Shown piece by piece: positions 4,323-23,410 of a DNA stretch of 26,070 nucleotides. Under the pieces are notes generated by a model that did no database searches, was not told the DNA's origin, and was given only the letters and a program-made list of their open reading frames with translations. Source of the DNA: a virus; IMG/VR virus record IMGVR_UViG_3300042465_000529, positions 1 through 26,070 of that record; one strand, 5' to 3'. The translations under genes and the position numbers were made by a program. Numbering within the stretch: position 1 is the first letter of the stretch; every line of letters starts with the position of its first letter.

Positions 4323-5891
4323 ATGCCATTTTTATTTGTTGCCGAAGTTGTTGCCGCTGAAGTTGCCGCCGCAGCAGCAGCCGAAGCCGCAGCAGTTGCA
4401 GCCGCCGAAATTGCCGCCACTGAAGCCGCTACCGTTGCCGCCGCCGAAGCCGCCGCTACTCAAGCTGCCCAAGCTACCACTGCTGAGTCTCTTAATCTCG
4501 CTGCACAACAAGCAGCGGCGCAAGGCGCTAATACCCAAGCCGGTATTATGGGAGCGCAGGCCGCTGGAGCTGGGCCTACTACAACGGGCATTATGGCTCA
4601 AGCCGCACCCGCTGCTGAAGCTGCTGTGGCGGTGGGTGGACCCGGCGCTGGTTCGGCTGGGACTCAGGCGGCGATGGAAGCAAGTATGCAAAGCGCTGGT
4701 GCTACGCCGGGCGGCATCGCTACAGTTCCTCAAGCCGCTGGTAGTTCAGCAGCGACCACTGCTGGCGCTTCGCCTCCCGGAACATATCAGATGCTGAGTG
4801 GGGAGACACTAAATTTTGGTAGTTCTGCCCCATCAGGTATTGTTGATGCTACTCAATCACTTCAATTGCCTCCCGGCGTTACACCCAGTGGAGCGGAGAC
4901 TGCGGCTGGCTATACAACTGCGGGGCCACCTCCTTCTGCGTTGTCAAAAGGCTGGACTGCATTCTCTGAATTCGCCAAAGCCAACCCATATACCACTGCT
5001 ATGGGTACATATGTGGTAGGAAATAAGCTTGGGTTATTTGACCCTAACCAGCAAAATTTCAACAGCGACCCCTACAACGGCCCACTGAACAAGTACCGAC
5101 TGTCTTCTGACTTTCAAGGACGGCAAGCCAATCCTGAAGACTACCAGTACACGCCTCGACGTTACGCTAACGGCGGTATTGCTGATGTTATGCAGGCCCC
5201 GACAAATCTAAACTTTGTGCAAGCCCAACAGGGTATGCAAAGTCCCGCTATGCCGGGCGGCATTGCCTCGTACAAGGCTGGCGGTAGCACTTCGGCTGTG
5301 GAATATTACACAGACATGTTGGGCGGTGAACGTGAACGGCAGATCGCAGCAATGAGGACTCCCGCTGCTGGAAGCCGCGATGTGGGTATCTACCGAGACG
5401 CTGACCCAGACACTAGGTATCTGGACCCCATGTCCGCTGCACAGGTCCGTATGTCCAAGGTCAACAAGCGCGCCAATGTACAGACTCCCGGTATGAAGCG
5501 TCCTACGCCTATGGGTCAATTAAATCTTAAGCCACCCGGAACTAAGGAGGGTAGTAGTTCCCCTGATGTCGAGAGTGCAGCGCAAGGCGGCATCATGCAG
5601 GCAAGTGGCCATTTGGGTGGTTATGCTGCTGGCGGACAGCCACGGCTGCTCAAGGGTCCCGGCGATGGCATGAGCGACAACATTCCTGCCACAATTGCGA
5701 ACAAGCAACCTGCCCGTTTGGCTGATGGTGAGTTTGTTGTTCCTGCTGACGTTGTGTCTCACCTTGGTAACGGCTCTACAAACGCTGGGTCTAAGAAGCT
5801 GCACGGCATGATGACCAACGTGCGTAAGGCGCGTACTGGCAACCCCAAACAAGGTAAGCAGATAAACCCCAACCGATTCATGCCCAAGTAA
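4323..5891 (+). CDS. Ala/Gly-rich virion protein with conserved C-terminal tail
   Basis: This 522-residue protein has three zones. Residues 5-65 are almost only Ala, Glu, Val and Thr and are likely one long helix. Residues 66-250 are Gly/Ala/Pro/Thr-rich and low complexity. The C-terminal half contains GGI motifs near residues 128, 283, 312 and 422, plus a compact segment at 445-506 (GPGDGMSDNIP, then ARLADGEFVVPADVVSHLG, then VRKARTG). That last segment is one I associate with virion proteins of many environmental phages. No catalytic motif or signal peptide is seen. An AAGGAG ribosome site precedes the ATG. The stop overlaps the next start as TAATG. A virion role is inferred from composition and position; tail fibre or internal protein are both possible. 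Confidence 0.78.
   Translation: MPFLFVAEVVAAEVAAAAAAEAAAVAAAEIAATEAATVAAAEAAATQAAQATTAESLNLAAQQAAAQGANTQAGIMGAQAAGAGPTTTGIMAQAAPAAEAAVAVGGPGAGSAGTQAAMEASMQSAGATPGGIATVPQAAGSSAATTAGASPPGTYQMLSGETLNFGSSAPSGIVDATQSLQLPPGVTPSGAETAAGYTTAGPPPSALSKGWTAFSEFAKANPYTTAMGTYVVGNKLGLFDPNQQNFNSDPYNGPLNKYRLSSDFQGRQANPEDYQYTPRRYANGGIADVMQAPTNLNFVQAQQGMQSPAMPGGIASYKAGGSTSAVEYYTDMLGGERERQIAAMRTPAAGSRDVGIYRDADPDTRYLDPMSAAQVRMSKVNKRANVQTPGMKRPTPMGQLNLKPPGTKEGSSSPDVESAAQGGIMQASGHLGGYAAGGQPRLLKGPGDGMSDNIPATIANKQPARLADGEFVVPADVVSHLGNGSTNAGSKKLHGMMTNVRKARTGNPKQGKQINPNRFMPK
4340..4490 (+). repeat. Low-complexity GCC/GCA-GAA tract encoding poly-Ala/Glu helix
   Basis: The DNA is an imperfect run of gcc, gca, gaa and gct codons encoding Ala-rich blocks broken by single Glu, Val, Ile or Thr. 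Codon choice varies from unit to unit, so it is not a fresh slippage product. It also creates long spurious open frames on both strands. Confidence 0.85.
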
Positions 5892-6298
5892 TGCCACTCC
5901 ACTACGTACACCCAAACCACTTGCCTGCTGTATGGGATAAGGCCGCTCCGCTTTTGCAAAAGAGCATTGATATCGAGCCTGACTTCATTACGATCGAACA
6001 GGTGGAGTACGCCATCCGCACAGGTAAGATGTCTTTGCTGGTATGGAACGAGCCCGATGAAGGTATTACTGGCGCAGCGGCGGTTGAGTTTATTGACTAT
6101 CCACGCTATCGTGTGGGGCACGGGACTCTTCTGGGTGGCAAGAATGTAGTAAAGCCGCATGTGCTCAAAGAGCTGTTGGCTTGGATGAAATCTAATGGAG
6201 CCACAGTAGCCCAATGCTGGTGCCGCGATGAGCTGGTTCCGATGTACAAAAAGATGGGCATGGAAGAAACCCATCACGTAATGAGGATGAAGCTATGA
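5891..6298 (+). CDS. GNAT-fold protein, T7 gp13-like position
   Basis: This 135-residue protein shows the outline of a GNAT acetyltransferase. An N-terminal helical part (residues 8-45) is followed by strands (MSLLVWNEPDEG, then ITGAAAVEFID) and a C-terminal MYKKMGMEETHHVMRMKL piece that matches the late GNAT helix and strand. The usual acetyl-CoA phosphate loop (R/Q-x-x-G-x-G/A) is not evident; GHGTLLGGKNV lies at that place. It may therefore be a structural derivative. T7-like phages encode a small protein of similar size (gp13) just before their internal core proteins, and this gene likewise precedes two long virion proteins. The start overlaps the previous stop (TAATG) and the stop overlaps the next start (ATGA), so translation is coupled on both sides. 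Confidence 0.72.
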   Translation: MPLHYVHPNHLPAVWDKAAPLLQKSIDIEPDFITIEQVEYAIRTGKMSLLVWNEPDEGITGAAAVEFIDYPRYRVGHGTLLGGKNVVKPHVLKELLAWMKSNGATVAQCWCRDELVPMYKKMGMEETHHVMRMKL

Positions 6299-8859
6299 TT
6301 ATCGGCAACAAGTTCAACGGTTACTCTGCGGACAATCGACGCCTGTATCACTTGGGTGGCGGTGGCGGTGGTGGCCAGACCACGAGCACGTCAAACACGT
6401 CGAACATCCCTGAGTACGCACGTCCCTACGTAGAGACGATGATGGGCGCGACACAGCGCCAGCTGTTTCAAGGCAACGAAACTGGGGACGGCGGGTTCAA
6501 CATAACTGGTTTCCAGCCGTACAAGGCGTACGGCGGTACGTACAACCAACAAGGTAATCAGACTTCCTACGACCCTAGCAAATCAGTTGCTGGTTTTCAG
6601 CCGATGCAAGAGCAAGCGCAGCGGGGTATCGCTGGAATGCAGCTGCCCGGCGAGTATGGTCGCGCCTCGCAGCAAGCTGCGTACGCAGGTATGGGCGGTA
6701 TGGACGTAGCTGGCCAAGCCAACACTCAAGGCTTTCAGAATCAAGTTGGCGGGTACATGAACCCGTACATGAATCAAGTGCTGGCTCCTCAGCTTGATGA
6801 AATGCGCCGTCAGTACGGTATCACTGGCCAACAGCAATCTAGCCAAGCCACTCAAGCTGGTGCTTATGGTGGTTCGCGTGACGCGATCATGGCTGCTGAG
6901 AACAACCGTAATCTGGGCATGGCGCAGAACCAAGCAATTGGCCAAGCTTACGACAGGTCGTTCGGCGCAGCGCAGCAGCAATACAACCAGAACTTGCAAA
7001 ACCAACTTGCTGGTTACGGCATGGTGGGGCAGTCTGCGAATCAGTTGGCTGGTATTGGTAACCAGATGCTCACTGGCCAACAAGGCATTTACAACATGCA
7101 GAACACTGCTGGCGCACAGCAGCAGGCACTGGAGCAGCGGAAGATTGATCAGGCGGTTAGCGACTATGCCAACGCGCAGCAGTACCCGCTGATGCAGTTG
7201 GGCACTATGTCGAATATGCTGCGTGGCTTGCCAATGCAGGCGTCCACTACCAATCAATACGCTGCGGCTCCAAATGCCCTTACTCAAGGTATCGGCGCTG
7301 CTGGCGCTGGAGCTTCGCTTTACAACGCGATGAGACCACCGGGCGGCGCTGCTGGCGGTTTGCCTAGCGAGTTCAAGTACGCCAAGGGCGGCATCACCTC
7401 TGTGCCCCAATACAATGTCGGCGGCGAAATTGAGTCTCAACTTGAGTCGATGGACATTCAAGGTTTGATGAAGCAAGCCCAAGAGTCTTCAAGCCCCACA
7501 GTACGGGCAATGGCTAAGCGTATCTTGCGTGAGAAACAAATGGAGCAAAGCGCTGGTCAAGCCCCACAAGGCATGGCTGGTCAAGCCCCACAAGACATGG
7601 CTGGTCAAGTTCCACAAGGCATGGCTGGTGGTGGCATCATTGCATTCGCTCCCGGTGGCATTACGGGGGCTAATGAAGGTGACGTAGGGGAAGAAGAGGC
7701 GCGGATTGGTATGCAAGAACGCCTTGCTCGGCCCCCTATCACTGGTGAGGGCATTATGGGTGTGGCCCCAGCAGCTGCGCCTCCGGTTAACACTGCCCCG
7801 ACTGATATTGTCATGAACGCGCAAAACGCGCTTAAAACACAACAAGACCTTGCGAACAAGCCGATTGCGGACATCATGGCTGAACGTCAGGCACTTCGTC
7901 AATCTATGGGTGTTGGTGAAAACGTAGCCCGCGAGCAGTACCGCAATGAGCAGATGGCGGAACGTGCCAACCTGAAGGATGAAGCTGAACGTCAACGCAG
8001 TATGCGTCTGGCCCAGTTCTTTGCTAGCTGGGGCTCTACCCCCGGCTCAACGCTTGTCGCTGGTATGACTGCTTTGCAGAAATCTATTCCCGGCATGATT
8101 GACGATGCAAAGGACGCCAAGAAAGCCAAGCGTGACGCTGACAAGATCATCTTTGACCTTGATAACGCAGACCGTCTTGAGAAGATAGGCCGCATTGACG
8201 AAGCGACGGCGCTCAAAGAAAAAGCCGCTGACAACGCACAGAAGCTCAATCAGAACCTGCTTCAGTATCAGACCAGCATAGAAGGTGATAAGTCACGCTC
8301 AGAATCAGCAAGAGCGAGTGACGCGTCACGCGCAGCTTCAGCGGAAAATGTTGCAAACATCCAAGCTCAAAGCCAGAAAACAACGGCGCAGATCACTGCG
8401 GACCGCATGGCAGCAAGTGCTAAAGATACCGCTGCCCGCGGTGACAGAAAGCTGGATGAAAACGAACGCGCCAATCTGCAACGTAACGTGCTGGTTGCGG
8501 AAAGAGCTTTGTCGGACACTGAGAGAGCAATTGCGGCGGAGAAAGACAAGGACTTTGCCTACAAAGCTGCTGTGACTACGGCGTCGCGGACCCAAGGGGT
8601 TACTCCAAGGGCGAGAGAAGCTGCGCGAGCAGAAATAGCCACTAAGGATGCAGCGTGGAACACTCGGATTACAAGAGCCAGAGAGGACGCTGACCTTCTC
8701 AAGAGTCAAATGAGAGAGGTCAACGCAAGGCTTAGTGCTACGCCTACTCCTTCCGCTGGCGCTGAATCGGTCAAAGTGGGAGACAAAACATACGCTAGAC
8801 CTGCTGGTATGACTGATGCACAATGGAGTGATTACAAGAAATCGCAAGGGGTCAAGTAA
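6295..8859 (+). CDS. Large Gln/Gly-rich virion protein, candidate internal/ejection protein
   Basis: This 854-residue protein starts with a poly-Gly run (residues 22-28) and a Thr/Ser/Asn stretch. Residues 95-340 are rich in Gln, Asn, Gly, Ala and Met, with repeated NQ and QQ pairs. GGI motifs occur near residues 365, 447 and 455, and a three-copy eight-residue repeat (AGQAPQGM) spans 420-443. From about 530 to 830 the protein is charged and helical, probably coiled coil. It ends MTDAQWSDYKKSQGVK. No catalytic residues or signal peptide are seen. It lies between the GNAT-like gene and the giant gene with overlaps at both ends, an arrangement like T7 gp14/gp15. I infer a virion protein delivered with the DNA, without direct proof. 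Confidence 0.75.
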   Translation: MIIGNKFNGYSADNRRLYHLGGGGGGGQTTSTSNTSNIPEYARPYVETMMGATQRQLFQGNETGDGGFNITGFQPYKAYGGTYNQQGNQTSYDPSKSVAGFQPMQEQAQRGIAGMQLPGEYGRASQQAAYAGMGGMDVAGQANTQGFQNQVGGYMNPYMNQVLAPQLDEMRRQYGITGQQQSSQATQAGAYGGSRDAIMAAENNRNLGMAQNQAIGQAYDRSFGAAQQQYNQNLQNQLAGYGMVGQSANQLAGIGNQMLTGQQGIYNMQNTAGAQQQALEQRKIDQAVSDYANAQQYPLMQLGTMSNMLRGLPMQASTTNQYAAAPNALTQGIGAAGAGASLYNAMRPPGGAAGGLPSEFKYAKGGITSVPQYNVGGEIESQLESMDIQGLMKQAQESSSPTVRAMAKRILREKQMEQSAGQAPQGMAGQAPQDMAGQVPQGMAGGGIIAFAPGGITGANEGDVGEEEARIGMQERLARPPITGEGIMGVAPAAAPPVNTAPTDIVMNAQNALKTQQDLANKPIADIMAERQALRQSMGVGENVAREQYRNEQMAERANLKDEAERQRSMRLAQFFASWGSTPGSTLVAGMTALQKSIPGMIDDAKDAKKAKRDADKIIFDLDNADRLEKIGRIDEATALKEKAADNAQKLNQNLLQYQTSIEGDKSRSESARASDASRAASAENVANIQAQSQKTTAQITADRMAASAKDTAARGDRKLDENERANLQRNVLVAERALSDTERAIAAEKDKDFAYKAAVTTASRTQGVTPRAREAARAEIATKDAAWNTRITRAREDADLLKSQMREVNARLSATPTPSAGAESVKVGDKTYARPAGMTDAQWSDYKKSQGVK
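7552..7623 (+). repeat. Three-copy 24-base in-frame tandem repeat
   Basis: Three contiguous 24-base units (7552-7575, 7576-7599, 7600-7623) each encode AGQAPQGM or a close variant (D for G in unit 2, V for A in unit 3). They are followed by a partial fourth unit. Units differ by only one or two bases, pointing to recent duplication inside the 854-residue virion protein. Confidence 0.95.
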
Positions 8860-11800
8860 TGAGTCCAGAAGAGTGGTTGGCCCAACAACCTAAGACAAGT
8901 CCGAGAGTTGCGCTTAGCCCTGAAGAATGGCTAGCGCAGCAAAACCAAGCGCAGCCACAACCCACTTCCGCCACTACCCCCGCCGCCGTCGCTGCTAAGC
9001 CCGTTGCCGATGAAGAGGCTGGTGATTTTATGCGCGGGGTTGGCAACATTCCCGGTCAGCTTCAAGAAACTTTTGGTGGTGCTAAAGCATTGGCGGGTTT
9101 GCTGTCGAACAGCAAAGGCCTTATCGAGAGCGGCCTCATGTCGATGGAAGAGGGCAAGCTCAAACAGTCCACTAAGCAATCGGACTCCTTTACTGATGCG
9201 TGGACTCAAGGCATTGGCACGGTTCTTACAGATTGGCTTCCATACCAAATTGGCTCTGGTGTAGGTAACCTTGCTGAGACTCTCGTCTTCATGGGTGTTG
9301 GCGCGCTTGCTGGTGGCGCAGCTGGCGCTGGTGTTGGGGCTGTGCCCGGTGCTTTGGCTGGCGCGGTATCAAAGCAGCTTGTCAAACAGGGAATCAAAGA
9401 GGCTTCTGAAAAAATTGCCAAAGAAAGCGGCAAGGAAGCTGCGCAGAAGTTTGTTGAGGCTGAGACCAAACGCGTTATCACTGATGCCAGCAATGAGGCC
9501 GCAAAGGCTGCGGCCAAGCAATACGCAAAGACTAGTGCTAGAGGGGCTGGCATGACCGCCGGTATGGTGACTCAGGCTGGTCTTTCTGGCGCGGGTGAAG
9601 TCACTGGGCGTGCGATTGACGAAGCTGGCGGTGACACCGACAAAGTTGATCTTGGCCGAGTTGTTCCCGCTGCTATTGTTCATGGAGTGTCAGATTACTT
9701 CATTAACAAGATTGGTCTTGACGCACTGAAAATCGGAAGTAAGAGCACGAACAACCTTGTGCTTGATGTCGCTAAGCAGATTGCTGTAACAGGTGCGAAG
9801 CAAACCCCTGCCGAATTGATACAGACTATGGCTGAGCGCTACGGCGCAAAACTGTCACTGTCTGATGCTGAAGCGCTTAAAGAATATGTGGACGCTACCG
9901 CTGCTTCGTTTGGTATGGCTGTTGCCCCCGGCGGTGTGGGCGGTGCTCGCACGAATTTGGCAAATAAGTTTGCCAACGCAGCTAAACAAAGCACGACTGC
10001 TGAAGATCAGTTGCGGCGGGAGTCCACCAGTGCGGCTGGCCAGACCCAAGCGCCTCCACCTCCATTGAGCGCTGATCTGATTTCCGGACTGACTCCCGCC
10101 GCTGGTGATACCGGGGCGCTGGCAAAAGTTTCTGATGACACCCTTGCTGCCCAGACTGAACTGCAAAAAACAGAAGCGGGCAAGGTAAAGACTGCTGAAG
10201 ATTTATTCGCCAAAGCTGATGCAGGGGAAAAGATCAAACGCAACGATATCCACGCTGTTGGCAAAGTGGTTGGCATTGATTCGTTCCCCCAAACGGTAAA
10301 GACCAACAAAGACAAAATTGAATTTATCCGACAGCACGTCTTAGGACAAGGAGCGCCCAATGTTGCAGGAACTGTCAATGCCCCAGCTGGAGACAGCACT
10401 CAACTTCCTACACCACCAGCAGCCAATGCCCCCACCGGAGGGGCTACCGGAGCTAAACCAGCTGGAGTGGTTCCTACTGAGCCGAATGCTGGACCAGCTG
10501 CTACTGGAGAAGGACAGCAGCCCGCTACAGTAACGCCAAAAGCTATCACTGATCTCAGCCCTGAATTGCAGGCGATGGTTGCTGAGCGTAGAGATGCGAT
10601 TGCCCAGATCGAGATGGACGGTGGCGACGCATCCAAGAAAAAAGAACAGCTGAATAAGTTTTTGGCCAAGCAAGGCATCACTGGAACGCTGCCCGCACGC
10701 AAGAGCATTGAGAAAGATTTCTTGGATGAGGGAGAAGTCCCTTACGCTGTGCCCGGTGAAGAAAAGACTGACCAAGAACTGGAAGCTGAGCGCGTAGCGG
10801 CGTACAACGAGTCGCTGGGCGAGACTGCGGCCAACTACGAAATTAGCGATGAGGACAAGCGCCTCTACAACGAGACTCGTGATGAAGTAAATACGGAAGC
10901 TGAAACGGCCAATGAGCGCCGCAAAGAGCTGAGCACTGAACTTGAAGCCGCCATCGCTGCGTACGATGCGGCTGCTGAAAACGATGAGGACGCTGCGCTC
11001 AAGCGCGTCTATGCCGCTGAGGACGCCTTGCAGAGTCACGGCCCCGTGCAGCGCTTGCTGCCCGAATATGAGAAGAAGTTTGCTGCTGACTACAAGGACG
11101 TTTACTTCGGGAACATTACCCAGACCAGTAAAAAACTTGGTGGTAGCGGCAAAGCTGAGCATCGTAAAGCCGCCAAAGCGCTGCAAGCGTACATGGGCAA
11201 AACAGGCGGGCGTGATAAAGAGCAGATGACTGCCCAAGAGCGCCGCATTGTCAATTCGTATGAAGAAAACCGCGCTGAGTACAGCAAAATTTTTGGCGTC
11301 AAATTTCCGCGCTGGGCAGACCTGACCGATGACCAGAAGCAAGTCTACCTTGGCCAGATCACCAACAATGCTGGCCAACAACAGACGATGGGTTTTGCTA
11401 AGCTTGGTGTTAAGCTCGTTGAAGATAGTCGTCAGCTAAGCGAAGGCGAGAAGCGCGAAAAGCAAAACGTCATTGACCGTCAGGCAGAAGTACGTCAGAA
11501 GTCGGAAGCTCAGCAAGAACGCGATCGCAAGACCCGCGAGAACTACGAGCGCAACAAGCCTTCAAACTCATCCCTGCCCAACGCGGTTGTGCAGATGGTC
11601 GTAAACAACGATCTGCAAGGGGTACTGAAGTACCTGAGCGAAGTCAAGACAACCGCGCTGACATCGCCGTACAAGAGGATTCTGAAGGCTGTGGCCAAGT
11701 CGTTGTACGACATGAAGCTCAACACCAAGATCAAGGTTGTCGAGTCTTCAGTGATTGAGGGCGACTTGGCGCGCTACGACCCTGTGTCAGATACGATCCT

Positions 11801-14800
11801 TGTAACCCGTGAAGGCCTGAGCTCCAACACGCTCATCCACGAGGTAGTACACGCCGGTACGGTCAAGGTCATCAACGAGTATCTTTACGGTAATCGCAAG
11901 TCTTTGTCTATGGGACAGCTCAACGCTATTCGGCAGCTTGAGCGCATCATGAATGCAACGAAGGCGTCTTTAGAGGCTGACCACCCAGAGGCGTACAAGA
12001 ACCTGTTTGAGTTCGTATCCTATGCACTGACCAGCGACCAGCTGCAACAAGACCTGCACGATGAGTCTGTTACGGACGCTGGCACAACTCGCTTGCTTGA
12101 AAGCGTTTATGGCAAGGCCGACACAGAAGCTGTTGGTAAAAATCTGCCTGAGAACAAATCTCAGTGGTCGGCATTTAAGCTGTCCATTGCCCGTATTCTC
12201 AAGGTTAGGGACGACTACCTGACCAAAGGCAAGCTGGACAAGAACGCCAACACCAACTACGTGATGGAGGTTGCAGCAGCGTTTGAAGACATCCTCGTCA
12301 AGCCAACTGAGCCTGTGTTTCTACCAGCCCTGCCTGCCACAGCACCCAAGGCAACAAAAGGTAAGAAGGGTGCTGCGCCACCCAAGCAGCCGCTGCCTAT
12401 GCACAAGGCTGAGCTCGGCGCGGATAACACCGAGTACCACCTACCCAAAGAAGACGCTCCCCTGACTATTCGGGATAAGCTTGCACGCATGAAAGGTAAC
12501 GTCAACACTTGGCGTAACGCAGCGCGTATCTTCCAAGACGATCGTTATCGCATCAAGGCCCATGATCGTGTTTTGGACATGTCTGAAAAACTCATTCGTG
12601 AGGGCAAGGACAAGATGAACAACGTCTACGAGCAGATCGTGCTGGCCGTAGGTGATGCAAAGAACTTCTTCAGTGTGTATGTAAGCCAGCCTGCTCGTGA
12701 ACTGGACTCAGCCGTTAAAGCGTTTGCTGATGGTGCTGGCTACGCAACGAAGCGTGCGCTTGAAGAGCTGCACAAAATCCTTGAGGCAACTCATGAGCCT
12801 GAGCGCCGCACGGTCAAGTACCTGTTGTCTGTCCCGCTCAGCATCAAAGAAGACCTTACGCACAACGGCAAGAAGATCAGTGCTGCCAAGCGCCGTGAAG
12901 ACATCAAGAAGCTGTTGGATAACAATGTGCTGAGCCAAGCGCAAGCTAAACAGCTGCGCGAGGAACTGGACAGCATCGTCTTTGAGAAAGATGCAAACGG
13001 CCAGATAGTTCTTGACCAAGACGGCAATCCAAAGCCAAACATGAAGTACGTGGACCCTGCTGGGTCTTCCCCTGTGTCAGCCAATTCAAAGGCAAAGGGT
13101 ATCAAGCGTGGCATCAACTACGCTTCTGAAGAGTACAACGCGACTGGTATGAATCTTCAAGACGGTAAGAAGATTCGTGATGAGCTGAAGAACCATCCGC
13201 AAGCTGCTGAAATCCAGCAGGTCATTGACTCTATGCAGCAACTGCACACTGCGACCACTGAGATGAACAAGCTGGCCAACTACTGGTCTCAGCCTGTCAG
13301 TAATCGCGTGGCGTTCTATGGCTTTGAAAACTACATCCCGCTTAAAGGCAACCCCAAGCACGCGGAAGTAGACGATGACATCGACTTTGATAGCCGCAAA
13401 AACGGACGCGAACTGCAAGACAGCGCAGGTGCTATGGGTGGCCGTGTCAGCGTTTCCAAGAACCCCATCTTGCAGACAATGACCGATGCAACTCGCGCCT
13501 CACTGCGTGCGGGTCGGCGTAATCTGACTCAGGCAATCAAGAACGCTATTACCAACAAAGATGCCAACGGTAATACAACCCTCAAAGGCTACATCAAGAA
13601 GACGATCAAGTTTGAAGAACGCGATACTGTTGACCTGTCGGACTTAAAGGGTGAGACCACGATCTTTCACTACAACGAGGACGGTAGCATTGACGTTCTG
13701 GTGGTGGCTGATCAGAACCTACGTGACTCGATTCGTCGTACGTACAAGCAGATCAATCCTCTAGTAGAGTTTTCAAACAAGTGGACAAGTCGTATCGGGC
13801 AGATGCACACCCGGTACAACTACAACTTTGCGCCGCTGAACTTTGTACGCGACGTGTTGACCAACGCTTGGAACATTGGTGCTAGCGAGATGGGTCCAGT
13901 TGAGGCTGCGCGTTACCTGAAGAACGTAGCGTTCTTGACTGCAAACGGCGGCATGTACAAGGCAATGCAAGTTGCAATCTTGTTCCCCAAAGGCGACACC
14001 CAGTCGTTGCGGGCACTAGAAACTCTATCTAAAAAAGACCCCTACATCCGTGACATGGTTGAGTACATCCGTGCTGGTGGTATGGTGTCCCACTTGAATG
14101 GCATGTCTTTGCAGTCAAACTTTGAAGAACTGCACAAGAAGGTTGGGCGCTCTGGTGTCCTGACAAAAGTCGAAGACTTCAACCAATTTGTTGATGTGTG
14201 GACCAACATGTTTGAATTGGCCAGCCGTGCCTCTGCGTACACTGTGGCCAAGAATAATTTTATGCGTGACGGTATGTCAGAGGCTGAGGCTCGCACCAAA
14301 GCCACTGTGTTTACTAAGAACCTCGCTAACTTTGAGCAAGTGGGTGAGTGGGGCAAGTACATGGGTGCGCTCTACATGTTCTTCCGTCCCGCTGCGACTG
14401 GCGCTGTGCGTGCGATCGAGGCCGTGGCCCCCGCGTTTATCTCGGATGAGAAGGCTACTAGCCGACTGCCCCCAGAGATTGCATCTGACCCTGCGGCCAA
14501 GAAAAAGTACCTTGAGACTTTTGATAAGCAGCGCTCCAATGCGCGTCTTATGTCTTTCTCGTTATTTAGTCTTGGTGCGCTGGCGTACACGCTGGCCTAC
14601 ATGACTGCTGACGATGATGAGCTAGAACGCAATGCTGTGGCAACAGATAACATGGAGCAGTGGACTCGCTTCGCACGCTTCCACGTGCCTCGCGGCATCA
14701 GTGAAGCAATGGGCCTTAAAGACCCCCTGATCTTCCAAGTGCCTTGGGGCTTTGGTCTGGGCGCGTTTGCTGCGGCAGGTGCTCAACTTGCTGGTGTCGC

Positions 14801-15596
14801 TGGCGGTAGTCACAAGATCACCGATGCGCTCTCAAACATTACTACGTCCATCATGCTGGACTCGTTTGTGCCAATCCCTGTCTCGCGTATTAACCCGATC
14901 GAAAGCCCAGACAAATGGCTTTTGGATTCGATCGCGCCTAGCTTCTTCCGCCCAATGCTTGAGTTTGTTATGAACACAAACGGGTTGGGCCGTGAGATTA
15001 ACAGCACAGCGCAGCGCCGTTTAGGCGATGCTTATACAGGCGGTGACCACATTCCAGAGATGTGGAAAGACGCTTCCCGTTATATGCACAACGCCACCGA
15101 TGGTTTCATTGACGTGAGTCCGAACTCGCTCTACTTCATGTCTAACAGCTACGTCGATGGTATCGGTCGTATTGCTGAAAGCATGTATGGCATTACTGAT
15201 TTGGCGCAAGATCGCAAAGACTTCAACCTGAAAACTGATTTGCCTTTGTTTGGTTCGTTCTTTGGTTCACGCTCCAGCGTCGATGCTCGTGAGTTTGCTC
15301 GTGTGGAGAAAGAAATCAAACACATGGAAAAAACCATCAACTCCTTCAAGACTGACCCGGTAAGATACGCTGAGTACACCGCTAAGTATCCAATGGAAGA
15401 AGCTGCTGTTGATACCTACAACAAGATGGTCAATCAGCAGTTAAACCCACTACGTGCAGAAGACAAGGCTATTCGTCTAAATCGAGACTTCTCACCGATG
15501 ATACGCAAGCAGCTGCTTGAAACCAATAAGTATCAAGCGGACTTGGTCAAGCGGCAGATGATTGAGATTTTTAAGGCCTACGACATCAAGCCTTAA
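8859..15596 (+). CDS. Giant multidomain ejection/polyvalent-type protein with HExxH motif
   Basis: This 2245-residue protein is the largest gene here. Residues 2-10 and 20-28 are the same nine-residue motif (SPEEWLAQQ). A Gly/Ala hydrophobic stretch at about 140-170 could enter membrane. Residues 170-240 are Ala/Lys helical, 385-560 a Pro/Ala linker, and 560-920 coiled coil. A zincin-like site follows: H994-E-V-V-H998 in TLIHEVVHAG, with E1051 (LFEFVSYAL) as candidate third ligand. From about 1640 to 2100 the sequence (PLNFVRDVLTNAW, NFEQVGEWGKYMGALYMFF, a hydrophobic helix near 1896-1914) resembles the large polyvalent protein associated domains, probably LPD38. The order after a GNAT-like and a Gln-rich protein recalls T7 gp16. 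I infer ejection into the host. The protease activity is unproven. The start overlaps TAATG. Confidence 0.85.
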   Translation: MSPEEWLAQQPKTSPRVALSPEEWLAQQNQAQPQPTSATTPAAVAAKPVADEEAGDFMRGVGNIPGQLQETFGGAKALAGLLSNSKGLIESGLMSMEEGKLKQSTKQSDSFTDAWTQGIGTVLTDWLPYQIGSGVGNLAETLVFMGVGALAGGAAGAGVGAVPGALAGAVSKQLVKQGIKEASEKIAKESGKEAAQKFVEAETKRVITDASNEAAKAAAKQYAKTSARGAGMTAGMVTQAGLSGAGEVTGRAIDEAGGDTDKVDLGRVVPAAIVHGVSDYFINKIGLDALKIGSKSTNNLVLDVAKQIAVTGAKQTPAELIQTMAERYGAKLSLSDAEALKEYVDATAASFGMAVAPGGVGGARTNLANKFANAAKQSTTAEDQLRRESTSAAGQTQAPPPPLSADLISGLTPAAGDTGALAKVSDDTLAAQTELQKTEAGKVKTAEDLFAKADAGEKIKRNDIHAVGKVVGIDSFPQTVKTNKDKIEFIRQHVLGQGAPNVAGTVNAPAGDSTQLPTPPAANAPTGGATGAKPAGVVPTEPNAGPAATGEGQQPATVTPKAITDLSPELQAMVAERRDAIAQIEMDGGDASKKKEQLNKFLAKQGITGTLPARKSIEKDFLDEGEVPYAVPGEEKTDQELEAERVAAYNESLGETAANYEISDEDKRLYNETRDEVNTEAETANERRKELSTELEAAIAAYDAAAENDEDAALKRVYAAEDALQSHGPVQRLLPEYEKKFAADYKDVYFGNITQTSKKLGGSGKAEHRKAAKALQAYMGKTGGRDKEQMTAQERRIVNSYEENRAEYSKIFGVKFPRWADLTDDQKQVYLGQITNNAGQQQTMGFAKLGVKLVEDSRQLSEGEKREKQNVIDRQAEVRQKSEAQQERDRKTRENYERNKPSNSSLPNAVVQMVVNNDLQGVLKYLSEVKTTALTSPYKRILKAVAKSLYDMKLNTKIKVVESSVIEGDLARYDPVSDTILVTREGLSSNTLIHEVVHAGTVKVINEYLYGNRKSLSMGQLNAIRQLERIMNATKASLEADHPEAYKNLFEFVSYALTSDQLQQDLHDESVTDAGTTRLLESVYGKADTEAVGKNLPENKSQWSAFKLSIARILKVRDDYLTKGKLDKNANTNYVMEVAAAFEDILVKPTEPVFLPALPATAPKATKGKKGAAPPKQPLPMHKAELGADNTEYHLPKEDAPLTIRDKLARMKGNVNTWRNAARIFQDDRYRIKAHDRVLDMSEKLIREGKDKMNNVYEQIVLAVGDAKNFFSVYVSQPARELDSAVKAFADGAGYATKRALEELHKILEATHEPERRTVKYLLSVPLSIKEDLTHNGKKISAAKRREDIKKLLDNNVLSQAQAKQLREELDSIVFEKDANGQIVLDQDGNPKPNMKYVDPAGSSPVSANSKAKGIKRGINYASEEYNATGMNLQDGKKIRDELKNHPQAAEIQQVIDSMQQLHTATTEMNKLANYWSQPVSNRVAFYGFENYIPLKGNPKHAEVDDDIDFDSRKNGRELQDSAGAMGGRVSVSKNPILQTMTDATRASLRAGRRNLTQAIKNAITNKDANGNTTLKGYIKKTIKFEERDTVDLSDLKGETTIFHYNEDGSIDVLVVADQNLRDSIRRTYKQINPLVEFSNKWTSRIGQMHTRYNYNFAPLNFVRDVLTNAWNIGASEMGPVEAARYLKNVAFLTANGGMYKAMQVAILFPKGDTQSLRALETLSKKDPYIRDMVEYIRAGGMVSHLNGMSLQSNFEELHKKVGRSGVLTKVEDFNQFVDVWTNMFELASRASAYTVAKNNFMRDGMSEAEARTKATVFTKNLANFEQVGEWGKYMGALYMFFRPAATGAVRAIEAVAPAFISDEKATSRLPPEIASDPAAKKKYLETFDKQRSNARLMSFSLFSLGALAYTLAYMTADDDELERNAVATDNMEQWTRFARFHVPRGISEAMGLKDPLIFQVPWGFGLGAFAAAGAQLAGVAGGSHKITDALSNITTSIMLDSFVPIPVSRINPIESPDKWLLDSIAPSFFRPMLEFVMNTNGLGREINSTAQRRLGDAYTGGDHIPEMWKDASRYMHNATDGFIDVSPNSLYFMSNSYVDGIGRIAESMYGITDLAQDRKDFNLKTDLPLFGSFFGSRSSVDAREFARVEKEIKHMEKTINSFKTDPVRYAEYTAKYPMEEAAVDTYNKMVNQQLNPLRAEDKAIRLNRDFSPMIRKQLLETNKYQADLVKRQMIEIFKAYDIKP
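8862..8942 (+). repeat. Duplicated nine-residue N-terminal motif (SPEEWLAQQ)
   Basis: Copies at 8862-8888 and 8916-8942 encode identical residues but differ at seven bases, all synonymous. The peptide has been kept while the DNA diverged, so the motif is probably functional, for example a docking signal. Confidence 0.9.
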
Positions 15597-15799
15597 CGAA
15601 CGCGCCAAGCGCGGACTCCGATGTGCTTGTCCTTGTGTGTGACGTAGCACTTGACTCGGATGCCCTCACGCTTGGCCCCGTTCTCCATAGCAACAATCAT
15701 TTCTGCAAAGCAAAGGGTGGGGACAAAAAAACTGTCCCCTACCTCCATGCCGGGAAATGGGAAAATCCACTCCGGTTCCTTAACCAGCTTCGGTGTCAT
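15593..15799 (-). CDS. Small conserved-type phage protein, unknown function
   Basis: This is the last gene of the leftward operon. The ATG at 15799 gives 68 residues (MTPKLVKEPEWIFPF...), overlapping the end of the primase gene by 20 bases. A longer form reaching further into the primase gene is unlikely, because its extra 18 residues look like out-of-frame primase sequence. The core is PFPGMEVGDSFFVP followed by a helix and a GIRVKCYV/GVRAWRVR beta pair. I recall this pattern from small uncharacterised proteins near phage replication genes. No ribosome site is obvious, so translation probably depends on the primase gene. The stop lies in the TTAA shared with the giant virion gene. Function unknown. 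Confidence 0.7.
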   Translation of the reverse strand: MTPKLVKEPEWIFPFPGMEVGDSFFVPTLCFAEMIVAMENGAKREGIRVKCYVTHKDKHIGVRAWRVR

Positions 15800-18620
15800 C
15801 AAAGAAGGTTTCAGGCAGTGTGGTCTTGAACCAGTACAGGTACGCTGGGTCAACGTGGATAGCTGACTTCCAGCCGGTTGTCAGACGGCCCTTCTTGTCA
15901 TCGACGAGGATGTTCTTAGCCCTCATCTCAAACTCAAACTCGCGGGTGCTGATCTGGCGCTCTGCCAAATACTTCTTGAACTCGGACTTGGAGATTTGCA
16001 AGAGATTGTCTTCACTGACGATGCGGCCTACGATCTGGCCACGTGGCTCCATCGTTACCTTCCCGTCCTTGAGCACCAGCATGTTGCCCATGTTCTTGTT
16101 CACGAAGTCGCCCAGCAGTGACGGGTAGTCGGTGCGGTTGACCTTGACCACGTTGTCCCGAATCTCAATCATGGAACGCACAACCTCGTGGTAGATGCGG
16201 CTCATGTCGTACTTGAGGATGTCGTGCTCGGTGGCGATCGACCCAGCGGCGCAGCAAGTGGAAGTCAGGTTCTGGTAGAAGCGGTAGGTCGAGTCGTCCC
16301 CAAAGTCTTTGATGAATCTATCGTCCCATGCTGCGATGTTGTCCAGTACGTAGTTGTCACCCCCAGCCATAATTTTCTTGATGAACATGGGGCCAGCGTG
16401 TCCATAGTTGAAGTTGAACGCGTCGAAGATGTGGCGACCAAGGCGGCTGTCACCGTCAATCAGCGCTGGCTTGCGCACCAGCAGTTCAATCAGTCGAGCA
16501 GCTTCACCGTCAGGGTTGGCCTTGATGGACTCCAGCTTGTTGTAGACCGACTGGTTGGTAGTAAGAACACCAATTAGCGATGCAGACATCTCATGCTCAC
16601 GCTCAGCGTTCACGGAACCCTGCATCCTGATCTTGGCCTTGCCGTGGGAGATTTTGTGGATGAGTGGGCCAAGCACCTTGGGGTCTTTGTCGCCAATCTC
16701 GTCGAGGCCGAGCATCAGGTTGTGCAAGCCAAGATAGCGGCCAGTCATGCCGTTGTCCGTAGCTTCAAACACGCTCAGGTCTTTGGGATGCCCGAACATG
16801 CTCATCCCTGCGTACATCGCTCCAGTCTTGGCACTGCCCGACTTGCCCAGAAGGCTGATAGCAACGCCGGAAGTGGAGGTGTAGCACATCAACGGGGAAC
16901 CCAGACCGCAAAGCGAGGTGAAGGCGTGGAGCTCAAAACCCGGCTCGTTCAAATAATCTATTGACTCACGCCACCGCTCGTAGGTGCCCTTGGTCTTGAG
17001 GAACTTGGAGATGCCCTTGACAAAGGGTGACGATGGGGCGTCAACGGTCTCGCCCTTGTAGGTGATCTCTTGAGTGCCAATTACAAAGCTGCGCTTGTCC
17101 CAGTCGTCGTCAATGCGGTTGTGTGTCCAGCCCATCTGCATCCGCATCTGGTCGGCCTTGTCAGTTGTCTGCATATACTGACCCCACTTGACTACGTAGT
17201 TCATGAGGTTGAGTGTGTTGGACGTTGAGACAAGGACGCCGTTGGACGCCATGAGTGCTTTAAAAGTTTCTTGGGCATAAACCCCTTTCATTGGTAGCAG
17301 AAATTCTTTTGCGCCATCACGTGGCAACACCAAGCGCATCTGCAAGCACTCGCCATCATGTGGGCTGACCATGCGGCGTACTGGATAGAAGTCGTGGGGC
17401 AGAACAAGGATTGGGTCATCTTGGTGCTTGATGCCCTTCTTGTCAATCTTGGGTGCGGGGATGAAGTAGATACCTCCATTGATGCCCCGCACGAAGGGCA
17501 TCATGAAGTCTGGGAAATCAGGAACTGTTTGGGTATCCGGTGCTTCCCGAACTGATTCCGCTTTATTTGGCGCGGGGGCTGGTCTGAACTCTTTGCCCAG
17601 CTGGATGGGGCTTGTGATCTTCCCTCTGTGGGAACAGCCTTGGCATCGGTCAGGATAGTTTGAGGCGAACCAATCACAGGTGCGCGGAGCAGGAAAGCGA
17701 CTTGCTTTTTCTTCTGTATCAGCATGGGTATACCTTGGGTCTGGGTTAGACAATTCATGAATAGCGGTCGCACCGTCATCGCAGAACTTGGCGATGGACA
17801 GGCCAGCAAACCACAGTGGCTCTTCAAGGGACTCGGCGTTCATCAAGATGTACTTGATCTGCTCACATCCACCTTCATCGTCTATGCTCTTCTGTGCCAA
17901 CACTTCAAATTTCTTGGCAAAGTTGTCGAGCTTCAGAATTGCTTTGGTGTCTTCATCCAGTCCTTTCGGTATTGCGGCAAGGATGTCCTCTGCCTCTTGT
18001 GTGTGTCCCTGTTTGGGAGCCTCGCCGCCAAGGAAAGCCTTGAACTCTTGCCAGCCATAGACAGCTATCTCATCACTGATAACCGATGTAGGCAGGGGTG
18101 GGTCTGTCTTGTAGTTGAACGTCTCAGGTGCGCGCATGATTCGTGCGGCATCTGCTGTGACTACGGGGTCAATGGCGATGTGAGCTTGGCACAGCGCCTT
18201 GAACTTCTCTGCGTAGGACTTCCACTCTGCCGCAGGAATGTCTTCATCCATCAGCCAGTAGGCGTGTATGCCTCCGCCTGAATCAACTAACACCGGCTCA
18301 GGTAAACCTGTCTGCATGACGAGGCTGATGACCCCAGCACGAGCGTCTTCTTTCGTTGCGTACTCTTTGCTCGGGCCTACGTCCAAATCAATGAAGAAGG
18401 AGCGTACAAACAAACAGTCATCAGCCTTTCGGCTATATCCATCAAATGTCCCCAGTGCAACAAACGTGTTTACCTTCTTGGCATTCAGTTTGTCGATTTC
18501 TGTATATACGTCATCGAGTGTCTCAGCAAAGCGGTTCGTAATTTTTTTGTTATTGTCAATACCACTGACACAATAGACACCCTGCGTAGGCAATGCTTTC
18601 TCGTAGAATTGTTTTAACAT
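15780..18620 (-). CDS. AEP-type primase fused to DUF927-like helicase/ATPase
   Basis: With the ATG at 18620 the protein has 946 residues. The N-terminal part fits an archaeo-eukaryotic primase (prim-pol). D78 and D80 lie in FFIDLDVG, S114 and H119 in DSGGGIHAYW, and R160/R163 in AARIMRAPETFNYK. A Cys cluster (CDWFASNYPDRCQGC, residues about 335-350) is a likely zinc site in the linker. The C-terminal part has Walker A GKSGSAKT near 592-599 and Walker B-like LGLDEIGD near 637-643, as in DUF927-type replicative ATPases. The protein should prime and unwind phage DNA. The frame stays open to a TTG at 18695, but those codons run through two hairpins, so I prefer 18620. No good ribosome site is seen. 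Confidence 0.88.
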   Translation of the reverse strand: MLKQFYEKALPTQGVYCVSGIDNNKKITNRFAETLDDVYTEIDKLNAKKVNTFVALGTFDGYSRKADDCLFVRSFFIDLDVGPSKEYATKEDARAGVISLVMQTGLPEPVLVDSGGGIHAYWLMDEDIPAAEWKSYAEKFKALCQAHIAIDPVVTADAARIMRAPETFNYKTDPPLPTSVISDEIAVYGWQEFKAFLGGEAPKQGHTQEAEDILAAIPKGLDEDTKAILKLDNFAKKFEVLAQKSIDDEGGCEQIKYILMNAESLEEPLWFAGLSIAKFCDDGATAIHELSNPDPRYTHADTEEKASRFPAPRTCDWFASNYPDRCQGCSHRGKITSPIQLGKEFRPAPAPNKAESVREAPDTQTVPDFPDFMMPFVRGINGGIYFIPAPKIDKKGIKHQDDPILVLPHDFYPVRRMVSPHDGECLQMRLVLPRDGAKEFLLPMKGVYAQETFKALMASNGVLVSTSNTLNLMNYVVKWGQYMQTTDKADQMRMQMGWTHNRIDDDWDKRSFVIGTQEITYKGETVDAPSSPFVKGISKFLKTKGTYERWRESIDYLNEPGFELHAFTSLCGLGSPLMCYTSTSGVAISLLGKSGSAKTGAMYAGMSMFGHPKDLSVFEATDNGMTGRYLGLHNLMLGLDEIGDKDPKVLGPLIHKISHGKAKIRMQGSVNAEREHEMSASLIGVLTTNQSVYNKLESIKANPDGEAARLIELLVRKPALIDGDSRLGRHIFDAFNFNYGHAGPMFIKKIMAGGDNYVLDNIAAWDDRFIKDFGDDSTYRFYQNLTSTCCAAGSIATEHDILKYDMSRIYHEVVRSMIEIRDNVVKVNRTDYPSLLGDFVNKNMGNMLVLKDGKVTMEPRGQIVGRIVSEDNLLQISKSEFKKYLAERQISTREFEFEMRAKNILVDDKKGRLTTGWKSAIHVDPAYLYWFKTTLPETFFDDTEAG

Positions 18621-18635
18621 GTCTTGCCAGAGTTG

Positions 18636-18658
18636 AAAAGAGCGGCACTGGGCCGCTC
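18636..18658 (-). terminator. Rho-independent-type hairpin (proximal to primase)
   Basis: A perfect seven-base stem (18640-18646 with 18652-18658) and a five-base loop, read on the minus strand as GAGCGGC...GCCGCTC, followed directly by TTTT. It ends 16 bases before the primase ATG, so it may act as a partial terminator or attenuator. Confidence 0.6.
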
Positions 18659-18664
18659 GGTAAA

Positions 18665-18689
18665 AGGTGGGGGAGTATGCCACTCCCCC
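18665..18689 (-). terminator. Second hairpin between HTH gene and primase
   Basis: A perfect eight-base GC-rich stem (18669-18676 with 18682-18689) and a five-base loop, followed on the minus strand by ACCTTTTA. It starts two bases after the HTH gene stop. Together with the hairpin at 18640-18658 it forms a tandem pair facing the leftward transcript. Confidence 0.55.
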
Positions 18690-18691
18690 CG

Positions 18692-19003
18692 TCAAATCGC
18701 TCGTCCAATCATCTCCTCAATGTAGGTTTTGGCGGCGGCGGTAGTTCTTGCAGGGAGCATTCCCTTTGCGGTGTCACTCTCTACCAAGTCGGTAAAGGTT
18801 TCAACCTTCAGCAGATTCTTATGGCGAATAGGTTTGCCACGGAACCAGCTGAAGACCGTCATGCGGGTTACATCCAGTGCGACTGCAACGTACTTAGCGG
18901 GGAGGTTTGCCTTCACGCAAGCAAGGGCCAGCGCAGTGCCAGCCCGATGGGGGTTGGCCTTGTGCAACTCAATCAAGAAAGCTTCGCTGTATGTCCGTGA
19001 CAT
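18692..19003 (-). CDS. Small HTH DNA-binding protein, putative transcription regulator
   Basis: This 103-residue protein has a helix-turn-helix of Cro/XRE character at residues about 25-62. The first HTH helix is ...NLPAKYVAVALDV, followed by the turn and a recognition helix TRMTVFSWFRG, then basic KPIRHK. The C-terminal helix (residues 65-103) may dimerise. An AAGGA ribosome site precedes the ATG at 19003. It lies in the leftward replication operon, ten bases after the Cys-cluster protein gene, and is followed at once by two hairpins. It may regulate early genes or recognise an origin; the sequence does not decide. It need not imply lysogeny, as no integrase is visible here. Confidence 0.75.
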   Translation of the reverse strand: MSRTYSEAFLIELHKANPHRAGTALALACVKANLPAKYVAVALDVTRMTVFSWFRGKPIRHKNLLKVETFTDLVESDTAKGMLPARTTAAAKTYIEEMIGRAI

Positions 19004-19012
19004 CCCTATTCC

Positions 19013-19882
19013 TTACTTCTTAGACCACTTCTTCACCACGTCAGAGATGTCTTTCTCTTCAGCGGCTGCGGCTTTGGTGGACTCGCGTTTGACTGGCGGT
19101 GCTTCGTCTTCAGCTGGCTCAGCAATTTCATTGCGGTGGCTAGCCACTTCAGCTTGGCCAGAACTGTCCGACTGAAACACGTTCAGCTTGATGGCTTGCT
19201 CAGCGGCGGGGCTCTTGGCTTGCTGGGCAATGATGTGCAGGTCTTCATCAGACACTTTACCAGCGGGACTGAACACAACCTTGGGCGCAGTGGCCTTGGT
19301 GTCGAACGCCATGCGAGTGATCACACGCCCAGCGCTGACGTTGTGGGAAGCCAAGTGCTGGATGTATGGACGGAAGGGGAATCGACCGTTGTCTTCTTTA
19401 CCGAAGCTGGAAGTAGCGGGCAACACCAACTGCATCACATCACCAGATGGGTCGTTAGGCAAGACCACCGCAGTGCGCCAAGACAGGCGGCAAGCAGTGC
19501 CAGTACCATTTTGGCCAGAGCCTTTGACGGACTTGGAACAGTCAGCGCACGACATGGCGCAAGGGTTCTTCACATCAGCGTCAGGCTTCTCCGAGTCGGT
19601 CGACCAGCACACAGGGCTGACCTTCTGGCCTTCTTGGAACGCGCCTTCGTAAAACATGCGCGAGGCTTTGTGTGCCATCTTCACGAAGATCACGTTCATG
19701 TGACGGTCTTCGATCGCACCGATTTCTTTACCGCCAGAATACTTGCGGAACACGCCACCCTTGATGGAGATGCGTTTGCTTTGACGGCCACCGCCACCGG
19801 CTACGGCCAGCGTGTCATCATCCAAACCCTCGATGGGAGTCATCACAGAGTTGCCAAACATAGTTGCGAGATCATTGCTCAT
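19013..19882 (-). CDS. Cys-cluster replication-block protein, possible ssDNA-binding protein
   Basis: This 289-residue protein has a Gly-rich N-terminal segment (residues 27-33) and a beta-rich middle (residues 38-205). Embedded there are cysteines C92, C108, C112, C115 and C131 (core CAMSCADC), spaced like a zinc site. Residues 240-289 are a disordered-looking tail of Glu, Ala, Pro and Lys, ending DVVKKWSKK. A folded core, zinc-like cluster and flexible tail between helicase and primase genes would suit a single-stranded DNA binding protein in the manner of T4 gp32. The usual ssDNA proteins end in acidic tails, whereas this one ends basic, so the call is weak. An AAGGAAA ribosome site precedes the ATG at 19882. 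Confidence 0.65.
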   Translation of the reverse strand: MSNDLATMFGNSVMTPIEGLDDDTLAVAGGGGRQSKRISIKGGVFRKYSGGKEIGAIEDRHMNVIFVKMAHKASRMFYEGAFQEGQKVSPVCWSTDSEKPDADVKNPCAMSCADCSKSVKGSGQNGTGTACRLSWRTAVVLPNDPSGDVMQLVLPATSSFGKEDNGRFPFRPYIQHLASHNVSAGRVITRMAFDTKATAPKVVFSPAGKVSDEDLHIIAQQAKSPAAEQAIKLNVFQSDSSGQAEVASHRNEIAEPAEDEAPPVKRESTKAAAAEEKDISDVVKKWSKK

Positions 19883-19909
19883 TTGAGTTTCCTTGTTTAC
19901 TGAACTAAC

Positions 19910-20344
19910 TTAGTTGGAGGGTTTCCGCACGGAAATGCTGAACTCCCTCATCACATTCACACCGGGCGGCAGACCATCGTCTTTGTGCTCAGCTATGAAT
20001 TCCTTAAAGTTGCCTTGATGAATACGCGCTTCAAACAAGTCAACTAAACCATTGTGCAGAACGAACTTGCGAAAGCTGTCCCCGTCACTGACTGTGAATC
20101 GCTCGGTCAACTTGCGAATCACTGTGCCGCTTTGGGTACGCATACTGCTAGCGTTGTTCTTGTTGCAGACATCAAGCATCTGACCTTCCAGCACCTTCAT
20201 GTCGGCTACCAGCGAGTCGTTCTGTACTTTCCACTCTGCCTCTACTCTATCCTTCTCATTTCGTATTGTCAAGTATATCTTGACTAATTCCTCAAAATTC
20301 AAGTCCGTGTCATTGATTGTTTCAATCGTTTCTTCTTCGGTCAT
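19910..20344 (-). CDS. Unknown replication-operon protein with N-terminal coiled coil
   Basis: This 144-residue protein starts with an acidic stretch (MTEEETIETINDTDLN), then a helix at about 18-62 (KIYLTIRNEKDRVEAEW, LEGQMLDVCNKN) likely to be coiled coil. A beta-containing part follows (TQSGTVIRKLTERFTV, FRKFVLHNG) and a short basic end. The outline recalls Gp157- or Gam-like nuclease inhibitor proteins, but I cannot claim homology. The ATG overlaps the helicase stop by four bases (ATGA), so the two are translationally coupled and may act together on DNA. Confidence 0.68.
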   Translation of the reverse strand: MTEEETIETINDTDLNFEELVKIYLTIRNEKDRVEAEWKVQNDSLVADMKVLEGQMLDVCNKNNASSMRTQSGTVIRKLTERFTVSDGDSFRKFVLHNGLVDLFEARIHQGNFKEFIAEHKDDGLPPGVNVMREFSISVRKPSN

Positions 20345-21897
20345 AGTCCCAGCTCCTGTTTGTATAAATCGACCAAGCTTTCGTGTGCATCAACCTTGCC
20401 TTGAAGCATTGCGTAAATCTTGCGTTCGGCTTCCGAGCCTTGCAGGTGTACGACTGTCATGCTGTTCTTCTGGCCCACGCGATCAATCCGCGCCACGCAC
20501 TGCAAGTAGGTCTCGACGCTCATAACGGGCGACCAAAATACGACGGTGTCTGCGGCAGTCAATGTGACGCCATGAGATGCTGACTGTGGTTGAATGACAA
20601 GAACTCTTGGGTTCTCTTGAGTTTGAAATCTGTTGATGATTTCGGCGCGCTCCCGCGCAGGTACATCTCCGTTAATTACTTCATTGACGACTCCTTGTTG
20701 ATTGAGGTGGTTTGAGACAAGCACGATGGTGTGACGGAACGGGACGAACACAATGACCTTGTGCGATGTCTCCTCAATCACTTCCATGAGTGCGTTAAGC
20801 CGTGGGGATACGTCAAACTCCACGACCTCTTTCGTGTCGGTGTACATCGCACCGCCAGAAATCTGTAACAGTTTGCTGAGCATCGCCGCCGCATTGACAG
20901 CAGAGATAGTCTCCCCTGCCGCTTCGATGAGCATCTGGTCTTTCAGCACCTTGTAGTATTTAGCCACCTGTGAAGTCAGCGGTACTTCGCGTGTCTGGTA
21001 CACAAGATCAGGCAGGTCAAGACAGTCGGCCTTCTCAAATCGAATCGCGGGTTGAAGCGCGTCGAACACATCGTTCTTGGCGGTCTTCTTTGGAATCCAT
21101 TTGAAGCGCGTGATCTGGTGCATGACTTTATCTTTCCATGCAGTCATGTACTTCGGTACACCAGCGGGGTTGACCAGCTTGGCCAGACCAAACGCATCCT
21201 CGGGTGACTGAGAAGCGGGGGTGCCCGTGAGCATCCATAGGCGGGTGTTCGGCGTAATCAGCTTGGCCAAGGTCTTCCAACGCTTTGTGGTGACAGTCTT
21301 GTAGGCATTGGCTTCGTCGATGACGATCAAATCAAAGTCTGCCTTGGCAATCTCATTCTGCACAGTGCCAACGCCATCAAAGTTGATGATGACGAACTCG
21401 TACTCCCCGTTGATAATCTTGACACGGCGCTTCGCATCGCCATGCGCAACGCCCACTGAGCGGTGCATCGCGGTCTTGAAGACATCAGCTTGCCACGCTG
21501 AGTACATGATTGAGAGAGGGCAGATCACCAGCACCCGTTTGATGAGGCCTTCTGTCATCAGGTAGTCTGCCGCCCAAATGACGGATGAGGTCTTGCCTGT
21601 GCCAGCTTCGTTAAAGCAGAAACATCTGTCTCGTAGAGCTAAGAACGATGCTGTAACTTTTTGGTGAGCGAACGGCTCGTACATGCCGGGCCATTCGTAC
21701 TTGGTGAGCATTGGGTTAGGAGCATCTCCGTAGAGACGGACGAGACGTTGCATCTCTTCCACACCCCAATAGACAAGCACACTGGCGTGGTTCCCGTTGT
21801 CGTTAAGCACTTCGCATCTGTCGATGTGCCCTTGCAAAAACTGCAAGTCCTTTGACGGAACAACCATGTGGACTGCTGTGTCCTGAACAACTTTCAT
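20341..21897 (-). CDS. SNF2-type superfamily 2 DNA helicase/translocase
   Basis: This 518-residue protein has the ordered motifs of an SF2 helicase. A Q-like motif with H78/Q79 is followed by Walker A EAGTGKT (97-103), motif Ia VLVICPLSI, motif II DEAN (194-197, where SNF2 proteins usually have DEAH), and motif III LTGTP (223-227). In the second RecA-like domain are the SASHGVTLT segment and motif VI QCVARIDRVGQ. The second domain reads as a swapped SNF2-like set. It should hydrolyse ATP and move on double-stranded DNA or unwind forks during phage replication or recombination. The start at 21897 has an AAAGGA ribosome site. A 172-base non-coding leader precedes it, so it probably opens a second leftward transcription segment. 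Confidence 0.93.
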   Translation of the reverse strand: MKVVQDTAVHMVVPSKDLQFLQGHIDRCEVLNDNGNHASVLVYWGVEEMQRLVRLYGDAPNPMLTKYEWPGMYEPFAHQKVTASFLALRDRCFCFNEAGTGKTSSVIWAADYLMTEGLIKRVLVICPLSIMYSAWQADVFKTAMHRSVGVAHGDAKRRVKIINGEYEFVIINFDGVGTVQNEIAKADFDLIVIDEANAYKTVTTKRWKTLAKLITPNTRLWMLTGTPASQSPEDAFGLAKLVNPAGVPKYMTAWKDKVMHQITRFKWIPKKTAKNDVFDALQPAIRFEKADCLDLPDLVYQTREVPLTSQVAKYYKVLKDQMLIEAAGETISAVNAAAMLSKLLQISGGAMYTDTKEVVEFDVSPRLNALMEVIEETSHKVIVFVPFRHTIVLVSNHLNQQGVVNEVINGDVPARERAEIINRFQTQENPRVLVIQPQSASHGVTLTAADTVVFWSPVMSVETYLQCVARIDRVGQKNSMTVVHLQGSEAERKIYAMLQGKVDAHESLVDLYKQELGL

Positions 21898-23373: not shown

Positions 23374-23410
23374 GGTTTTCCTCTTCTGTCCAGTTAAGTT
23401 TGACTTATTT

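Follow-up and report, generated by a model that had tools for sequence, protein, structure and literature searches.

A zincin-like domain in an exchangeable middle cassette of a giant, ejection-type phage protein

What does a metallopeptidase do inside a protein that a phage sends into its host? Zincin-like metallopeptidases have been described in polyvalent proteins and in N4-type ejected proteins (part of Iyer et al. 2017, PMC5512222). The question of their role in ejected proteins dates from that description, and the recent N4 structure paper still leaves it unanswered. The window, i.e. the whole stretch of viral DNA that was analysed (26,070 nucleotides), raises this question again, as one of its genes encodes a 2245-residue protein with an HExxH motif. 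The parts of this gene and its two upstream neighbours are:

5891..6298, plus strand: 135-residue neighbour, weakly acetyltransferase-like (PHROG 1249, E 1.8e-4), in the position of the small third ejection gene
6295..8859, plus strand: 854-residue neighbour, DNA ejection protein family (PHROG 4287, E 9.8e-8)
8859..15596, plus strand: 2245-residue ejection-type protein, ATG start (from the ORF and relatives)
8859..10505, plus strand: N-terminal carrier part, residues ~1-549 (border from identity profiles)
9270..9344, plus strand: Gly/Ala-rich hydrophobic stretch, residues ~138-162 (hydropathy)
10506..12338, plus strand: exchangeable cassette, residues ~550-1160 (identity comparisons; borders approximate)
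11577..12068, plus strand: zincin-like metallopeptidase domain, residues ~907-1070 (AlphaFold2 model, profile matches, BFVD fold matches)
11838..11852, plus strand: HEVVH motif, residues 994-998 (sequence; His/Glu/His invariant in relatives)
12009..12011, plus strand: E1051, candidate third zinc ligand (invariant in 55 relatives; on a helix after HExxH in the model)
12486..15593, plus strand: C-terminal carrier part, residues ~1210-2245 (alignment; AlphaFold2 pLDDT 78.1, pTM 0.67)
14646..15212, plus strand: LPD38 (PF18857), residues 1930-2118 (Pfam; 21 of 21 relatives)

The three genes overlap by a few bases, the 854-residue gene and the 2245-residue ORF by a single one, and their order is kept in most relatives. 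A three-gene ejection set is present at the locus, the assignment of the 135-residue gene being weak, and 11 of 24 relatives of the 854-residue protein match PHROG 4287, 'DNA ejection protein'. Together with the homology of the zincin to domains of solved internal virion and ejection proteins, the match of this neighbour bears out the sequence-only reading, which had called the giant protein ejection-type. The protein is probably packed inside the virus and shot into the cell with the DNA. Domain searches found neither a lysozyme nor a transglycosylase in the two large ejection families (854 and 2245 residues), an absent Pfam match being weak evidence; a separate endolysin-like gene lies at 939-1451. 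On the minus strand, positions 15780-25300 of the window hold replication genes, with matches to a DUF927 primase/helicase-like protein, an SNF2-type helicase, an exonuclease and a DNA polymerase.

Searched as a whole against PDB sequences, the 2245-residue protein gave chance matches only. Its N-terminal carrier part matches nothing in Pfam, PHROG or the PDB, and the possible membrane-active Gly/Ala segment noted earlier is indeed present in it (19-residue hydropathy maximum 1.64). The polyvalent-type C-terminus, formerly placed at residues 1640-2100, was recovered as an LPD38 domain at the end of this range; LPD38 is the sole Pfam domain of the protein (E 2e-16; 61.1 bits, cut-off 27). A scan of bacterial and archaeal genomes returned no match for the C-terminal carrier part and, therefore, no link to a host or prophage can be drawn. 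A fold search with the AlphaFold2 model of this part gave no meaningful PDB match, and profile comparison revealed no similarity to the Pseudomonas protein in 9sfn, PhiM1 gp48 or N4 vRNAP. For the carrier parts in general, sequence, profile and fold searches revealed no homology to the ejection proteins of T7, PhiM1 or N4.

The HEVVH sequence is the only HExxH motif of the protein, from whose composition 0.023 such motifs would be expected, and residue 1051 is a Glu. Relatives were gathered in separate searches with the whole protein, the zincin and the C-terminal region only. Across 55 non-redundant zincins (<85% identity) the domain has no invariant columns apart from H994, E995, H998 and E1051, and HExxH occurs in every relative with a complete middle part, including those found via the C-terminus alone. 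Many of the 55 were collected through the C-terminal region only and hence without regard to the motif, and the conservation of the four residues is far beyond chance. Thus, the site with H994 and H998 is real and E1051 holds as candidate third ligand; homologues lacking these residues had been named as counter-evidence, and here the comparison is clearly favourable. The first His and the Glu are mostly spaced 56-59 residues apart; outliers span the range 52-112. The dN/dS ratio of the domain is 0.03-0.10 (nine pairs), i.e. it is maintained by selection. None of the curated Pfam metallopeptidase models matches the window protein, and its relatives give weak, scattered matches (best: SprT-like, 1.8e-5). 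The absent Pfam match is a shortfall of the models and leaves the defining residues unaffected.

The AlphaFold2 model of the domain (55 sequences; pLDDT 85.7, pTM 0.83, core ~93-98) predicts a minimal zincin topology, consisting of helix 49-63, strands 69-72, 83-86 and 91-94, the HExxH helix 101-122, helix 130-150 and the Glu helix 161-170 (+888 for protein numbering). E1051 sits on the latter, the second C-terminal helix. Structure prediction had been suggested as a check of the metal site and it yields the zincin topology, the meeting of the ligands being judged by topology only. With this model, Foldseek found nine matches with E <0.001 among viral models (BFVD), all of them large proteins, among which is an internal core protein of a Pseudomonas phage; the BFVD matches include phage internal core and polyvalent proteins, and among the weaker ones are a Ralstonia internal core protein as well as a Vibrio virion RNA polymerase. 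The same search against the PDB gave no meaningful match, but it also missed the related entries 8vb2 and 9sfn, so that its silence weighs little.

These two entries were found by sequence profile. The 55-sequence zincin profile matches chain G, 'Internal virion protein', of 9sfn, the full-length counterpart of the internal virion protein of Pseudomonas phage vB_PaPhi_Mx1 (E 3.8e-18), and the 'Tetrameric ejection protein (gp48)' of PhiM1 in 8vb2 (E 3.2e-7), in both cases aligned on HExxH and the Glu. Profile-profile comparison backs both and, less strongly, N4 vRNAP, with E-values that apply to single comparisons. In PhiM1 gp48 (L129:7198-10989) HEAAH and the Glu of THEF lie inside residues 268-528. 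The PhiM1 structure paper describes this stretch as endolysin/exotransglycosidase-like, and neither HExxH nor a protease turned up in a search of its text. Judged by the profile alignment, the 'endolysin-like' domain of the solved PhiM1 ejectosome is probably a zincin, which is checkable in the existing density. In N4, an HExxH in the C1 domain of vRNAP is noted in a preprint, and part of Iyer et al. 2017 (PMC5512222) assigns the C1 region to the zincin-like metallopeptidases. On the strength of these two sources, ejected phage proteins with a zincin were already known. A 3066-residue LPD38 protein of Vibrio phage 252E42.2 (L127:1008-10208) matches methyltransferases weakly and contains the sequence HEILAHH, which may be the HExxxH form of the peptidase; the zincin profile gave no convincing match in it.

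What is new is the exchange pattern, and this is the part worth following. Identity comparisons among the relatives show that the zincin lies in a middle cassette that is swapped as a block between carriers. In the contig pairs L012/L092, L060/L062 and L010/L038 the first 500-550 residues are mostly 70-97% identical (sliding identity) and the C-terminal parts 77-100%, whereas the region in between is only ~10-50% identical. At the DNA level, L092 and L055 share 93% identity along 12.9 kb, and the start of the gene is 89% identical, but L092 7631-9910, within the ORF, shows no similarity. Four further contig pairs have the same right break, which is the start of the C-terminal part. In L101/L100 the gap covers only ~680 bases, essentially the zincin domain, and the remaining cassette is kept. 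In 7 of 15 carrier clusters (>=75% identity) at least two zincin types are found, and zincins of ~12-45% identity replace one another on an unchanged carrier. Conversely, the zincins of L010 and L017 share 76-77% identity with the window zincin, whereas identity is 44-45% in the C-terminal parts, the common block extending from about residue 550 to 1160. Two main zincin flavours, HExxHAxTV and HExxHYxxDH, occur among the relatives. The tree built from the C-terminal part has 8 flavour changes, of which well-supported branches force at least 7, although the labels are still more clustered than in shuffles (mean 12.4 changes). The zincin itself is retained in every complete relative. Pfam searches of the 55 upstream cassette parts returned nothing apart from one FtsK gamma domain, a DNA-binding domain that adjoins the zincin in this one cassette.

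All members found of this LPD38-carrier zincin family are uncultured contigs, and chimeric metagenome assemblies might mimic such exchanges. This origin is hardly credible, as the same right border recurs in five contig pairs with different sample identifiers, 7 of the 15 carrier clusters are affected and the reading frame is open throughout. The exchange could also reflect ordinary phage mosaicism at domain borders. A recurrent exchange of zincins within a fixed LPD38 carrier was not found described in the open-access papers searched, including the part of Iyer et al. 2017 (PMC5512222) covered here.

Based on these findings we see about an even chance that the giant protein is a podovirus-type inner-core ejection protein in which two conserved carrier parts surround a zincin cassette and the zincin cuts a protein other than its carrier. 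The protein would be packed in the capsid and leave it with the DNA, and the Gly/Ala-rich N-terminal and the LPD38-containing C-terminal carrier parts would set it in or across the envelope. Zinc would be held by H994, H998 and E1051, with E995 as general base, and the substrate would most likely be a host protein met early in infection. The carrier is an unlikely substrate because it retains ~90% identity across replacements of the cassette, which in one pair affect mainly the zincin. As zincins change without a matching change of the carrier, and in one pair without a change of the remaining cassette, the simplest reading is a substrate outside the protein, the likeliest being a host protein. 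The cassette exchange thus favours, without proving it, a substrate outside the carrier over self-processing, in which the zincin would free functional parts by cutting its own giant protein, either within the capsid or once it has entered the cell. Self-processing has already been proposed for P1 DdrB and other polyvalent proteins (part of Iyer et al. 2017, PMC5512222); no complete relative lacks the zincin, the ~350 non-zincin residues of the cassette could hold its own cleavage site, and swaps between homologous zincins could preserve one specificity. Nevertheless, the interchange of such divergent zincins on an unchanged carrier speaks against it, L101 and L100 keep even the rest of the cassette, and N4 vRNAP is reportedly packaged unprocessed despite its domain (same source, in part). 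We therefore consider self-processing rather unlikely, but worth keeping in view.

Two further possibilities concern the chemistry of the site. The peptidase might open a way through the wall for the ejection channel by cutting stem peptides of peptidoglycan or proteins of the periplasm, in analogy to the transglycosylase of T7 gp16. The authors of the PhiM1 study read the homologous region as endolysin-like, and the ejection genes of the family have no lysozyme or transglycosylase match, a missing Pfam match again being weak evidence against the existence of a wall enzyme. However, peptidoglycan peptidase families do not match the zincin domain and PhiM1 reportedly has a lysozyme-like domain too, which leaves envelope passage improbable. 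Slightly less probable still is a metal centre that is structural or otherwise non-proteolytic: none of the relatives found has a demonstrated activity and the N4 authors mention HExxH in other enzyme classes, but the general-base Glu, which a structural site could do without, shows the same invariance as the zinc ligands. The proposed substitution of the peptidase for the T7 transglycosylase is not supported in its original form, since PhiM1 is reported to have both and the zincin here lies mid-protein rather than N-terminally. Likewise, a general rule of this kind was rejected: with a lysozyme-like wall-enzyme domain in the PhiM1 OEP beside the zincin-bearing TEP, the two are not alternatives in general. 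Such a replacement might apply to the LPD38-carrier family only, in whose ejection genes no wall-degrading domain was found.

Returning to a zincin that acts on a host protein, we tentatively go one step further, at less than even chance, and propose that the carriers are delivery vehicles with a slot for an exchangeable protease cargo, that the metallopeptidase is swapped to match changing host targets, and that the protease, once injected, acts early as an effector against the host or its defences. In this respect the proposed protease-slot carriers of the LPD38 family may be likened to polymorphic toxins, which swap their toxic ends. The earlier idea of an injected protease that would disarm host proteins is plausible, and the cassette exchange favours it somewhat. 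The combination of a fixed carrier and a replaced protease makes the question of the zincin's role testable, as the naturally swapped cassettes provide ready-made pairs for comparing hosts and substrates.

In T7, a three-gene inner-core set ends with the large gp16, which carries an N-terminal transglycosylase. The gene order found here is the same, with a large last gene of a three-gene set, whereas no sequence or fold match between gp16 and the 2245-residue protein was found. N4 vRNAP (gp50) is likewise an ejected protein in which a zincin, in C1, is followed by a C-terminal region of ~1100 residues. It differs in that no T7-like RNA polymerase module was found in the 2245-residue protein (Pfam, PHROG, PDB), that the zincin match is weaker and that C2 is not detectably related to the C-terminal part here. 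With the metallopeptidases of polyvalent proteins, as described in part of Iyer et al. 2017 (PMC5512222), the window zincin shares HExxH, a third-ligand Glu on a later helix, a three-strand core and the location inside very large phage proteins with LPD domains, although the Pfam models of these metallopeptidases do not match it. PhiM1 gp48 and the Pseudomonas protein in 9sfn are shorter (1263 and 1337 residues, respectively, compared to 2245) and not detectably similar in the C-terminal part, but both contain a homologous zincin with HExxH and Glu, and both are the product of the last and largest of three ejection genes.
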